Under the pieces are notes generated by a model. That model saw only the letters and a list, made by a program, of their open reading frames with translations, did not search any database and was not told the DNA's origin. The position numbers and the translations under genes are program-made. Below are positions 36,790 through 40,533 of a stretch of DNA of 64,000 nucleotides, in pieces. This stretch comes from Marinoscillum furvescens DSM 4134 (GTDB taxonomy: Bacteria > Bacteroidota > Bacteroidia > Cytophagales > Cyclobacteriaceae). The DNA lies in NCBI RefSeq assembly GCF_003386095.1, contig NZ_QREG01000023.1:1-64000 (forward strand). The letters run 5' to 3'. Position 1 is the stretch's first letter; each line of letters begins with the position of its first letter.

Positions 36790-37380
36790 ATGCCCAATAC
36801 GCGTTTATTACAGCAACTCGAATTCATTCGAGAAATTGATAAACTCAAATACATTTTTCGTAAGTCCAGGCTATTTGGCAGTGACCGTCATGAAAACGAT
36901 GCGGAGCACAGCTGGCATTTGGCGATGATGGCTGTAGTGCTTGAAGAGCATGCCATCGCTCCCGTTTCGCTTTTGCGAGTGATCAAGATGCTGCTCATTC
37001 ATGACATAGTTGAAATAGACGCTGGGGATACCTTCTTGTATGACACCACCAAGGATCATAACAATACAGAAGAGGAACTAGTGGCCGCCAATCGCATTTT
37101 TGGGATCCTTCCTGAGGATCAGCGAGATGAGTTCATCAAGATCTGGCAGGAGTTCGAGGCAGGGGAGTCGGCAGATGCCCGCTTTGCTAAAGCCCTGGAC
37201 CGACTAGAACCCGTGATGCAAAATGCCTCCAATGGAGGGGGAACCTGGCAGGAATTTGATGTGCCAAAAGAAAAGGTTCTTAATAAAATTCAAGGTATCA
37301 GTAGAGGTTCGGATACTTTATGGGCTTATACGCAACAGCTATTGGATAAGTGTGTAGCTGACGGATTGCTGAAAGCTTAA
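36790..37380 (+). CDS. HD-domain phosphohydrolase (HDDC2/YfbR-like)
   Basis: The 196-aa protein has the HD-domain metal set: RHENDAEHSWHLAMM (first His), LLIHDIVEIDAGD (HD pair) and the later Asp in ALDRLEPVMQN. The order and length match HDDC2-type 5'-deoxynucleotidases acting on nucleoside monophosphates in the cytoplasm. It stands alone and converges on the SRPBCC gene with a four-base overlap. Confidence 0.85.
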   Translation: MPNTRLLQQLEFIREIDKLKYIFRKSRLFGSDRHENDAEHSWHLAMMAVVLEEHAIAPVSLLRVIKMLLIHDIVEIDAGDTFLYDTTKDHNNTEEELVAANRIFGILPEDQRDEFIKIWQEFEAGESADARFAKALDRLEPVMQNASNGGGTWQEFDVPKEKVLNKIQGISRGSDTLWAYTQQLLDKCVADGLLKA

Positions 37381-37832
37381 GAATCCGCTGCGTATCTTGG
37401 GTTGCCTTCGGCAAAAGATTTGAAGTCTTCCATAAACTGCAAGCTTTGCTTCTTAAATGCCTTTTTTCCCATGAAAAAGGCCATAAACTTCATTAAACCA
37501 CTAAATTCAAACTCTGTTTCACTGACCCACCTCGTCTGATTTCCTTGATCGTAAAAATAGTTGCGCTGTATATTGAAAGCACCTTTGGTATCATAGGTGC
37601 CATGAAAAGCATCCGGCAAGCTGCGCTCAGTGATCGTTTCAATCATTTCCATCTCACGTTTACCCCATTTGTATTTGAGCCTTGAGGTGGCACCACGAGT
37701 TCCGGGCTCGCCATCCAGATGCTCGAACGAGATAAATCCCTTTTGCCAATACTTCATGTTGTCAGGGTTGTCAAACTTTTCGATGACCTTGTCTCTAGGT
37801 AAGTCGATAGTGATTTCCAGGTTATATTTCAT
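37377..37832 (-). CDS. SRPBCC-fold protein
   Basis: The 151-aa protein opens MKYNLEITIDLPRDKVIEKFDNPDNMKYWQKGFISFE, the usual start of a START/polyketide-cyclase-like hydrophobic-pocket fold, and continues with RLKYKWGKREMEMIETI and WVSETEFEFSGLMKFMA. It probably binds a hydrophobic small molecule or lipid; the ligand is unknown. It has no signal peptide. Its promoter region borders the far end of the tRNA-derived repeat array. Confidence 0.8.
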   Translation of the reverse strand: MKYNLEITIDLPRDKVIEKFDNPDNMKYWQKGFISFEHLDGEPGTRGATSRLKYKWGKREMEMIETITERSLPDAFHGTYDTKGAFNIQRNYFYDQGNQTRWVSETEFEFSGLMKFMAFFMGKKAFKKQSLQFMEDFKSFAEGNPRYAADS

Positions 37833-37960
37833 TTTTAGGTTAATGTGTTTAGAGTAAAGCTAATGGATTTGTAGGTTTTGAAGAAAATGGATACTGAGTA
37901 AACAGGTGGCGAAATTTAGGTGTTCAGGTTGAAGCCCCATTTTTAAGAACTCCTTTATTG

Positions 37961-38018
37961 CGGTATGGACAGGACTCGAATCGCAGCGGCGCACCGTCCG
38001 CGACTTCTTGCGTATCAG
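37961..38018 (-). pseudogene. tRNA-Asp 3'-half copy 1
   Basis: This is the most distal unit. It covers the anticodon loop to the discriminator base, with the T-arm insertion. It differs from the others by ACAGGA in the T stem and a changed anticodon-stem base, and it has lost the terminator. Confidence 0.8.
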
Positions 38019-38132
38019 GCCTGTTGAGTTTTTGAGATGTTTGTTGGAGTTTAAGAATGAAATGCTTGCTACTAGTGGAATAGGGTGGATTAGACACAAA
38101 AAAAGGAGGCTCATCTGAAAACTCCTTTATTG

Positions 38133-38190
38133 CGGTATGGACGGGACTCGAATCGCAGCGGCGCACCGTCCGCGACTTCCTGGGTAACAG
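38133..38190 (-). pseudogene. tRNA-Asp 3'-half copy 2
   Basis: Same 58-bp segment with the T-arm insertion. The anticodon-loop region is altered (plus strand GGGTAACAG), so no Asp anticodon remains. Confidence 0.8.
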
Positions 38191-38304
38191 GCCTATTGAG
38201 TTTTTGAGATGTTTGTTGGAGTTTAAGAATGAAATGCTTGCTACTAGTGGAATAGGGTGGATTAGACACAAAAAAAGGAGCCTCATCTGAGAACTCCTTC
38301 CTTG

Positions 38305-38362
38305 CGGTATGGACGGGACTCGAATCGCAGCGGCGCACCGTCCGCGACTTCCTGCGTATCAG
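38305..38362 (-). pseudogene. tRNA-Asp 3'-half copy 3
   Basis: Same segment with the T-arm insertion and a full terminator. The anticodon-loop region reads GCGTATCAG on the plus strand, two bases off the intact gene. Confidence 0.8.
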
Positions 38363-38476
38363 GCCTGTTGAGTTTTTGAGATGTTTGTTGGAGTTTAAGA
38401 ATGAAATGCTTGCTACTAGTGCAATAGGATGGGTCTGATACAAAAAAAGGAGCCTCATCTGAGAACTCCTTCTTTG

Positions 38477-38534
38477 CGGTATGGACGGGACTCGAATCGC
38501 AGCGGCGCACCGTCCGCGACTTCCTGCGTAAAAG
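38477..38534 (-). pseudogene. tRNA-Asp 3'-half copy 4
   Basis: Same segment with the T-arm insertion. The anticodon-loop region is altered to GCGTAAAAG on the plus strand, and the 5' flank resembles copies 6 and 7 (TTGATGAG) more than copies 1-3. Confidence 0.8.
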
Positions 38535-38648
38535 GCCTATTGAGTTGATGAGCTGTTTGTTGGAGTTTAGGAATGAAATGCTTGCTACTAGTGGAATAGG
38601 GTGGATTAGACACAAAAAAAGGAGCCTCATCTGAAAACTCCTTTATTG

Positions 38649-38706
38649 CGGTATGGACAGGACTCGAATCGCAGCGGCGCACCGTCCGCGACTTCCTGCG
38701 TATCAG
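38649..38706 (-). pseudogene. tRNA-Asp 3'-half copy 5
   Basis: Same segment with the T-arm insertion. It shares the ACAGGA variant with copy 1. Confidence 0.8.
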
Positions 38707-38820
38707 GCCTGTTGAGTTTTTGAGATGTTTGTTGCGGGTTAAGAATCAAATGCTTGCTACTAGTGGAATAGGGTGGATTAGACACAAAAAAAGGAGTCTC
38801 ATCTGAGAACTCCTTCCTTG

Positions 38821-38878
38821 CGGTATGGACGGGACTCGAATCGCAGCGGCGCACCGTCCGCGACCTCCTGCGTATCAG
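38821..38878 (-). pseudogene. tRNA-Asp 3'-half copy 6
   Basis: Same segment with the T-arm insertion. Its GACCTCCTGCG tract is identical to the intact tRNA, unlike the GACTTCCTG of most copies. Confidence 0.8.
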
Positions 38879-38987
38879 GCCTATTGAGTTGATGAGGTGT
38901 TTGTTGGAGTTAAAGAATGATTGCTACCAGTGGAATGGGATGGGTCTGATACAAAAAAAGGAGCCTCACCTGAGAATACCTTCCTTG

Positions 38988-39045
38988 CGGTATGGACGGG
39001 ACTCGAATCGCAGCGGCGCACCGTCCGCGACTTCCTGCGTGACAG
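38988..39045 (-). pseudogene. tRNA-Asp 3'-half copy 7
   Basis: This is the copy nearest the intact genes. It retains the intact anticodon-loop sequence (plus strand GCGTGACAG, encoding GTC) yet carries the T-arm insertion and lacks the 5' half. Confidence 0.8.
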
Positions 39046-39126
39046 ACCTATTGAGTTGATAAGAGGTTTGTTGGAGTTTAATAACGAAATGATATTGCTA
39101 TTAGTGGAATAGGGTGGAATAGACAC

Positions 39127-39156
39127 AAAAAAAGGAGCCTCATCTGAGAACTCCTT
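39127..39156 (-). terminator. Terminator of the inner tRNA-Asp gene
   Basis: On the minus strand AAGGAG pairs with CTCCTT, with an inner CTC/GAG pairing, followed by seven T, five bases after the tRNA end. The same hairpin recurs in six of the seven array units. Confidence 0.85.
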
Positions 39157-39161
39157 CTTTG

Positions 39162-39235
39162 CGGTATGGACGGGACTCGAACCCGCGACCTCCTGCGTGA
39201 CAGGCAGGCATTCTAACCAACTGAACTACCACACC
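39162..39235 (-). tRNA. tRNA-Asp (anticodon GTC)
   Basis: The 74-nt minus-strand gene folds as a full cloverleaf. The acceptor GGTGTGG pairs with CCATACC, the D arm carries AGTTGGTTAGA, the anticodon stem-loop is CCTGC-CTGTCAC-GCAGG, and the T arm is GCGGG-TTCGAGT-CCCGT. The discriminator is G and CCA is not encoded. It differs from the neighbouring degenerate copies by a complete 5' half and by lacking the T-arm insertion. Confidence 0.96.
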
Positions 39236-39293
39236 AGTGCAATTATCATTTTGATCAAAGCCTAACACGAAATGAATTGAATCGTGAGTAGGT

Positions 39294-39325
39294 AAAAAAA
39301 GGAGCCTCAATGATGAAAGCTCCTT
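39294..39325 (-). terminator. Terminator of the outer tRNA-Asp gene
   Basis: On the minus strand AAGGAGC pairs with GCTCCTT, followed by T residues, directly after the tRNA 3' end. The loop differs from that of the array terminators. Confidence 0.75.
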
Positions 39326-39328
39326 TTG

Positions 39329-39402
39329 CGGTATGGACGGGACTCGAACCCGCGACCTCCTGCGTGACAGGCAGGCATTCTAACCAACTGAACTACCACA
39401 CC
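39329..39402 (-). tRNA. tRNA-Asp (anticodon GTC), second copy
   Basis: This 74-nt gene appears identical in sequence to the tRNA-Asp 167 bp away and has the same cloverleaf, anticodon and uncoded CCA. It is the first gene of the tRNA cluster in transcription order, and its own hairpin terminator lies between it and the second copy, so each copy looks like a self-contained unit. Confidence 0.96.
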
Positions 39403-39560
39403 TTTGATCTTTTTGGGACGCTTACACTCGTTTGTGTGCGTGTTTCCCTCAATTGCGATGCAAAACTATGTGCTTATTTGATTAAATCCAATAGGCCAAT
39501 TCAATTATTTTTATCCACATTTTCGATATCGTTAAAACTGTCGAAAAGGGGATTTCTTTC

Positions 39561-39568
39561 TACATTTG
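39561..39568 (+). promoter_or_regulatory. -7 promoter box of accA
   Basis: TACATTTG matches TAnnTTTG exactly and lies 20 bases before the accA ATG. It faces away from the tRNA genes. It also supports the start at 39589 over a frame that runs back through a tRNA. Confidence 0.5.
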
Positions 39569-39588
39569 TCCCAGTAAAAAATCAAAGC

Positions 39589-40533
39589 ATGCACTTAGAG
39601 TTCGAAAAGCCAATAGTAGAATTAGAAAGCAAGCTGGCAGATATGAAACAGCTAGCCCAGCAGAGTGATGTAGACGTAACAGATGCCATCAAAAAGCTGG
39701 AGACAAAGATTACAACCCTTAAGAAAGATACCTTTACCAATCTTACGAGGTGGCAGCGAGTGCAGCTGTCCCGTCATCCTGAGCGCCCGTACACCCTGGA
39801 CTATATCTATGAGATCTCTGATGATTTTGTAGAGTTACACGGTGATCGTACTGTAAAAGACGATAAAGCCATGGTGGGAGGTTTTGCTACCATAGATGGT
39901 GAGTCGGTAATGATCATTGGACAACAAAAGGGGAGAAATACCAAGCAGCGTCAAGAACGTAATTTTGGTATGGCCAACCCTGAAGGGTACCGAAAAGCTT
40001 TGCGCCTCATGAAGTTGGCTGAGAAGTTTAACAAACCCATCATTACGCTGGTGGACACTCCGGGTGCTTATCCAGGGTTAGAAGCGGAAGAACGCGGACA
40101 GGGAGAAGCCATCGCTCGAAATCTCAAAGAAATGATGATGCTCAAAGTACCAGTGGTGAGTGTGATCATTGGAGAAGGAGCTTCTGGTGGAGCATTGGGG
40201 ATTGCCATCGCAGACAAAGTTTTAATGATGGAAAATACCTGGTATTCGGTGATATCGCCTGAGTCGTGCTCGTCGATACTGTGGAGAAGCTGGGATTATA
40301 AAGAACAGGCTGCTGAAGCACTCAAGCTTACCGCAAAGGATATGCTGGAGCACAAACTGATTGATGGTATTATCAATGAGCCGCTTGGAGGTGCGCATTC
40401 AGATATGAAAGCGGCTGCTTCTCAGCTGAAAAGCGATGTGCTAAAACACATCAAAGCCTTGAAGAAACTTTCAGAAGATAAGCGTATACAACAGAGAATA
40501 GATAAATTCTCTGATATGGGAGCTTATAAATAA
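39589..40533 (+). CDS. accA: Acetyl-CoA carboxylase carboxyltransferase subunit alpha
   Basis: Start ATG 39589 gives the usual length of 314 aa and excludes a frame that reads through the tRNA-Asp gene. The protein shows the AccA coiled N-terminal region ([11 protein letters not shown]), [54 protein letters not shown] and the oxyanion segment [11 protein letters not shown], then [15 protein letters not shown]. With AccD it transfers the carboxyl from carboxybiotin to acetyl-CoA, making malonyl-CoA for fatty acids. AccD is not in the window. Two lipid-related genes follow closely. Confidence 0.97.

Follow-up and report, generated by a model that had tools for sequence, protein, structure and literature searches.

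An RtT-like tandem array of interrupted tRNA-Asp fragments in Marinoscillum furvescens, and broken tRNA copies elsewhere in its genus

Marinoscillum is a cytophagalian genus of the Bacteroidota, and the window analysed here is the stretch of 64,000 nucleotides at positions 1 to 64,000 of contig NZ_QREG01000023.1 (C23) of M. furvescens DSM 4134. Two intact tRNA-Asp(GTC) genes lie on the minus strand at 39328..39402 (gene 1) and 39161..39235 (gene 2), both recognised by ARAGORN and both scoring 69.7 bits against the Rfam tRNA model. Each is followed on the same strand by a terminator-like hairpin and T-run, at 39294..39327 for gene 1 and 39127..39160 for gene 2; the first differs in sequence from those of the units described below, and the second is almost identical to them. 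Downstream of the two genes, seven tandem units follow on the minus strand, for which Tandem Repeats Finder reported a period of 172, 7.2 copies and 90% matches at 37946-39181. Measured from one tRNA 3' end to the next, the unit lengths are 172, 172, 172, 172, 172, 167 and 174 bp (n=7); a first, sequence-only reading of this DNA had described the seven-unit array behind two intact genes and the first six of these lengths, and both descriptions were borne out. The array is flanked on one side by genes for an HD-domain protein and for a protein that matches Polyketide_cyc2 only weakly, below the cut-off, and on the other by a gene for an acetyl-CoA carboxylase carboxyltransferase. A separate 21-bp tandem repeat of 13.2 copies occupies positions 1609-1886 of the window, overlapping a 113-aa minus-strand frame of WLEASV-type heptad repeats.

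Counted outwards from gene 2, the tRNA-Asp 3' parts of the units lie, all on the minus strand, at 38987..39045 (unit 7; insert at 39008-39023, hairpin and T-run at 38953-38986), 38820..38878 (unit 6; 38841-38856 and 38786-38819), 38648..38706 (unit 5; 38669-38684 and 38614-38647), 38476..38534 (unit 4; 38497-38512 and 38442-38475), 38304..38362 (unit 3; 38325-38340 and 38270-38303), 38132..38190 (unit 2; 38153-38168 and 38098-38131) and 37960..38018 (unit 1, the most distal; insert at 37981-37996). The hairpin and T-run thus stand 3' of six of the seven units, as had been claimed, and are absent after the last, whose 3' end is at 37960; a strict terminator scan of the array recognised only one unit hairpin, and shuffled sequences gave a mean of 1.4. 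None of the units was called as a functional tRNA, ARAGORN and Rfam reporting just the two intact genes. The tRNA half of each unit had been described as a 58-bp segment; it does run from the anticodon region to the 3' end, but it comprises 59 bases, 43 of tRNA-Asp and 16 inserted. The insert, CGGTGCGCCGCTGCGA on the sense strand, stands directly before the T-loop sequence TTCGA, which begins at tRNA base 55, and is identical in all seven units. It had been missed in the sequence-only reading and is the key feature of the units. The presence of one insert at one site throughout the array implies either that insertion preceded amplification or that the insert spread by conversion.

Pairwise identity among the seven units is 86-95%, and variable columns are distributed unevenly: 2 of 46 in the 3' block vs 32 of 82 in the spacer (Fisher p 7e-6). 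Both observations support the earlier suggestion that the array was duplicated and perhaps homogenised, although the low variability of the 46-base 3' block could be explained equally well by conversion or by selection. The copy number itself might be questioned as an assembly artefact, since the genome is a draft of 62 contigs and short-read assemblies can miscount arrays; the units are, however, distinct from one another, the array is internal to one contig, and arrays of similar kinds are present in other relatives, which makes an artefact very improbable. Among six genomes of the genus, the 172-bp unit was found only in this one, the matches in the five others spanning at most 39 of the 172 query bases. 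In two of these (G002 and G005) a tRNA-Asp gene adjoins the same carboxyltransferase gene and, by eye, the array is missing; G003 is uninformative, as its contig stops 126 bp behind the tRNA-Asp gene.

The sequence-only reading had found no named feature to which such a structure could be assigned; that claim was overturned by the RtT repeats of the E. coli tyrT locus, which share its plan. In strain K-12, two tRNA-Tyr genes precede 3.1 units of 178 bp, and the locus bears the annotations rttR and tpr. At both loci, two intact tRNA genes precede tandem units of near-equal length (178 vs 172 bp), and each unit ends with a tRNA 3' part whose T-loop is split by an insert; the E. coli unit reads GGTTCGA, 68 foreign GC-rich bases and then ATCCTTCCCCCACCACCA, so that the T-loop is interrupted there too. 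The Marinoscillum array differs in that the tRNA is tRNA-Asp rather than tRNA-Tyr, the insert is 16 bp long and of other sequence, terminator-like hairpins stand between the units, and broken copies occur at many isotypes within one genome. The Rfam RtT model (RF00391) gave four matches at the E. coli locus, used as a positive control (three units and one match between tRNA genes), but none at E <=1 in 37300-40000 and none in 17 further tRNA loci of the genus. Given the shared plan and the lack of an Rfam match, the Asp array appears to resemble RtT without being a member, and its nearest named relative would be the RtT repeat. The Rfam scan of the array yielded, besides the two tRNAs, only two sub-threshold SpF41 matches, which we read as chance, and a literature search found nothing on tRNA-half arrays of this kind, though such an account may still be in print. 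The fourth E. coli K-12 match lies between tyrT and tyrV (L159, 1864-1995). Val and Pro copies in the congener G005 (L218 and L233) carry repeated, long T-loop inserts in which, by eye, GGATGAGAA and GAGTAATCC are common with the E. coli RtT unit; neither locus has an Rfam RtT match.

The likeness raises the possibility that the units are functional RtT-like RNAs, transcribed by read-through from the tRNA-Asp promoter and freed as small structured RNAs during processing of the tRNA precursor, the T-loop insert blocking tRNA activity and conferring a structure of its own. The shared plan, including the annotated non-coding RNA rttR, speaks for this reading, as does the conserved 3' block of the Asp array, a tendency also seen among the E. 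coli units (3/95 vs 10/83 variable columns, p 0.04, the 3' block being the less variable). In Actinobacillus, northern signals were obtained for RtT-family RNAs located next to tRNA-Asn and tRNA-Lys genes, and E. coli RtT RNAs have been tied to modulation of the stringent response (PMC4986893). Weighing on the other side, the Phe array of this genome has no significant constraint on its insert block (4/27 variable columns vs 18/78, p 0.42), and the E. coli insert, although matched in 4,680 of 5,426 E. coli genomes (at 1-9 places each, median 2), is absent from the other 746 and hence dispensable there.

Transcription of the units would also have to pass the terminator-like hairpins behind each tRNA-Asp gene and six of the units. 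These hairpins agree with the earlier description of the unit as an independently terminated module, but no promoter that would make it independent was seen in the array. The sequence TANNTTTG, which we take to be the Bacteroidota -7 box, precedes 17 of 31 intact tRNA genes at a distance of at most 150 bp, where about 1.7 would be expected, and is present on neither strand of the array; about 0.44 occurrences per strand are expected there by chance, so its absence weighs little. A sigma-70-like promoter scan of the array likewise returned no site.

Two unit RNAs folded no better than their shuffles (z 0.74 and -0.72; intact tRNA, z -2.21). When 16 inserts from Marinoscillum were folded alone, six reached p<0.05 (Thr, Cys, G001-Phe and three D-loop palindromes) and ten did not, the Asp insert among them (p 0.75); the combined p of 3e-7 is carried by the six significant inserts, and 9 of the 12 T-loop inserts were not significant at p<0.05. 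In a manual alignment of 14 inserts, each 16 nt long (Asp, Phe x4, Lys, Ser x2, His, Arg-cct x3 and G001-Phe x2), columns 1-3 paired with columns 8-10 in 90.5% of cells, and two of the pairs had changed on both sides; an alternative helix paired in 69.6% of cells. The covariation score of the three-pair helix was reached by 0/500 shuffles, but its number of pairs changed on both sides was matched by 31/500 and its number of pair types by 500/500; because the inserts were chosen and trimmed by hand, the helix result is supportive only. Taken together, we regard functional RtT-like RNAs as an unlikely, if serious, alternative.

Open frames of 81-120 aa traverse the units on the minus strand, and with the annotated tpr of E. 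coli as a precedent the units might be thought to encode small basic peptides. The 172-bp period, however, shifts the frame at every unit, a Pfam scan of three of these ORFs found no match, and several of the ORF starts lie, by eye, inside terminator hairpins; peptide-coding units seem hardly credible.

Broken tRNA copies are not confined to tRNA-Asp. In this genome (G000), a broken sense copy of the gene's own isotype was found within 1.2 kb of 14 of the 33 tRNA genes tested (the two Asp genes among the 14 sharing one array), whereas the control with other isotypes gave 0/160. The congeners G001 and G005 had such copies at 10/32 (control 0/157) and 6/31 (control 0/151) tRNA genes, respectively, so that the control pooled over the three genomes was 0/468. 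No broken own-isotype copy was found at the 31 tRNA genes of G016, from the same family (control 0/152), and two genomes of the same order gave counts with a control that was not clean (G028, 1/32 with control 5/151; G033, 4/26 with control 2/124). The Asp array is one case of a wider occurrence of broken tRNA copies in the genus.

In this genome, 11 genes have their copies on the downstream side, chiefly as 3' parts, and three (Met, Gln and Glu) have them upstream. Four further arrays are formed at tRNA-Phe (L163, contig C5; 6 x 105 bp), tRNA-Thr (L171; four full units of ~121), tRNA-Met (L174; three copies at a spacing of ~172) and tRNA-Arg-tct (L162; two copies at a spacing of 255), with inserts in the T-loop or anticodon loop. 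Break positions are readable only where two matched blocks exist, and six were found: 53|55 with 16 extra bases (Asp), 50|51 with 48 (Arg-cct), 33|34 with 14 (Met), 21|24 with 15 (Glu), 54|61 with 16 (His) and, in G005, 54|56 with 15 (His). The 16-mer is not in every broken copy, inserts of other sequence being common. At three G001 loci (L198, L203 and L207), the D-loop of broken tRNA 5' parts contains palindromes of the GATAGCTATC or GATAACTATC type. In each of three species, the broken 3' copy at the His locus shares its terminator variant with the intact gene of that species, and the T-loop inserts differ from one species to the next; the terminator pattern points to conversion between the copies or to their repeated formation.

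Tyrosine recombinases displace tRNA fragments that run from the anticodon to the 3' end, and such fragments are found at the attachment sites of genomic islands. The units could accordingly be debris of attachment sites, tRNA 3' halves displaced by integrative elements since lost, with crossovers in the anticodon loop or T-loop. The downstream copies often span the anticodon region to the 3' end and, as in island remnants, tRNA 3' fragments adjoin an intact tRNA gene; unlike such remnants, they form tandem arrays without cargo and carry inserts in their loops. Only four Phage_integrase (PF00589) matches were found in the genome, none on the window's contig, upstream 5' parts with D-loop inserts also exist, and the 16-bp insert is left unexplained. 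Attachment-site debris was rejected for want of an integrase on the array's contig, and we consider it a very unlikely origin.

The insert motif recurs well beyond the array. With up to three mismatches, it has 7 matches in the window against 0.43 expected from shuffling, and 0/100 shuffles reached 7. Its opposite-strand form, TCGCAGCGGCGNACCG, is present exactly in five of six genus genomes and in 22 of 196 family genomes, the reversed control giving 0; named loci that bear the motif include those of Marinoscillum pacificum and Marinoscillum sp. MSM7. With one mismatch allowed, the genus yields 46 matches, of which 23 are exact and the other 23 carry a single change, although some of the latter are copies of one repeat and the 23 are not independent events; this genome holds only 14, seven of them within the array. 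The changes are T1 to C in 11 matches (all with G at free position 12), at positions 5-6 in another 11 and at position 11 in one, a pattern that fits a hairpin in which TCGC would pair with GCGA and the loop would be free.

To place these matches, 100 distinct motif sites were taken from the collected loci, their flanks joined and compared with the tRNAs of those loci. A tRNA-like context was found at 34 of the 100 sites (seven of them supplied by the Asp array), vs 1/100 with shuffled flanks, and 33 of the 34 share the orientation of the tRNA. The approximate junction falls at or adjoining the T- or D-loop in 29 of the 34, at tRNA nt 51-55 (64-65 in the long Ser and Leu) or 18-20; the remaining five (three Met, one Arg-tct and one His) fall at 61 or 69, perhaps due to further inserts in those copies. 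T-loops are favoured by one of the search patterns, because it starts with CGAA; when the 21 sites that this pattern alone had yielded are left out, 32 of 79 were tRNA-like. The isotypes with motif sites are Asp, Val, Met, Arg, Ser, Thr, Glu, Cys, Leu, Lys and His. Other motif sites lie in intergenic repeats and, by eye, also in transposase-like and reverse-transcriptase-like genes. A class-wide scan with a looser motif found it in 9 of 396 genomes (19 matches) against 8 genomes (9 matches) for the reversed control, counts so close that the motif is not shown to exceed background in the class outside two families (f1 and f11). In a scan of database contigs, 18 of 26 stretches were by title from outside Bacteroidota and were taken as chance; tRNA-like flanks were present at 0 of the 17 that were checked. 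The motif also occurs in direct head-to-tail repeats in G451 (L129 and L133), the T-loop of the Arg-cct copy (L173) is filled by three 16-base variants in a row, and a related 16-mer, CCGCAGCGGCGGACCG, lies in repeated intergenic sequence of this genome (L136, L137 and L141).

Among known dispersed repeats, REP sequences are palindromes of 20-40 bp tagged GTAG or CGTC (PMC3733652). The 16-mer, too, is short, dispersed and hairpin-like, with a tetranucleotide that stays constant and a loop that varies; it differs in its length of 16 bp, in its end (CGGT/ACCG rather than GTAG/CGTC) and in its frequent position in tRNA loops. REP copies of the GTAG class flank a RAYT/Y1 transposase gene; REP-like transposition by a Y1 transposase was rejected, no motif lying within ~1.5 kb of the three Y1_Tnp loci of this genome. 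We tentatively raise the possibility that the 16-bp motif is a true micro-mobile, hairpin-forming CGGTYCGCCGNNGCGR unit, possibly among the smallest known. It would be oriented, with no target duplication seen in the tRNA copies, and would enter the T-loop (GG|TTCGA) and D-loop (GGA|TAGAG, by eye) as if it targeted the tRNA gene folded as a single strand; together with duplicated tRNA fragments, it could then be a recurrent source of bacterial RtT-like loci.

For the array itself, the reading that we favour, and consider probable, is that tRNA fragments were duplicated in tandem, received a micro-insertion directed to a loop, and underwent unequal exchange and homogenisation. A segment running from the anticodon region of tRNA-Asp gene 2 to some ~80 bp past its terminator would have been duplicated in tandem, as the unit boundaries suggest. 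One promoterless-looking copy may then have gained a 16-bp micro-insert at its T-loop, drawn from the dispersed, oriented short motif that this bacterial family carries at the T- and D-loops of tRNA copies. The insert-bearing copy would have given rise to seven, whether by unequal exchange or by replication slippage. Conversion probably kept the units similar, above all over the insert and the 3' end of the tRNA; any unit RNA would stem from read-through of the tRNA-Asp transcript. The insertion route and duplication breakpoints are those that we infer. Besides the low variability of the 3' block, two observations sit less easily with duplication and homogenisation: the insert is oriented and mostly at loops, not random debris, and the broken His copies (in three species) and Met copies (in two of the three species compared) are long-lived for dead DNA.

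Among repeats built on such a plan, the E. coli tyrT ones are the best known. In Marinoscillum, up to two fifths of the tested tRNA genes have broken copies of their own, with several insert sequences and isotypes, and the Asp array is a strong example of this wider phenomenon. With so many loci, inserts and isotypes in one genus, the birth, spread and possible function of such repeats may be compared across loci and species, and the oriented, loop-associated 16-bp insertion poses a mechanistic question, namely what places so short a sequence in the loops of tRNA copies.
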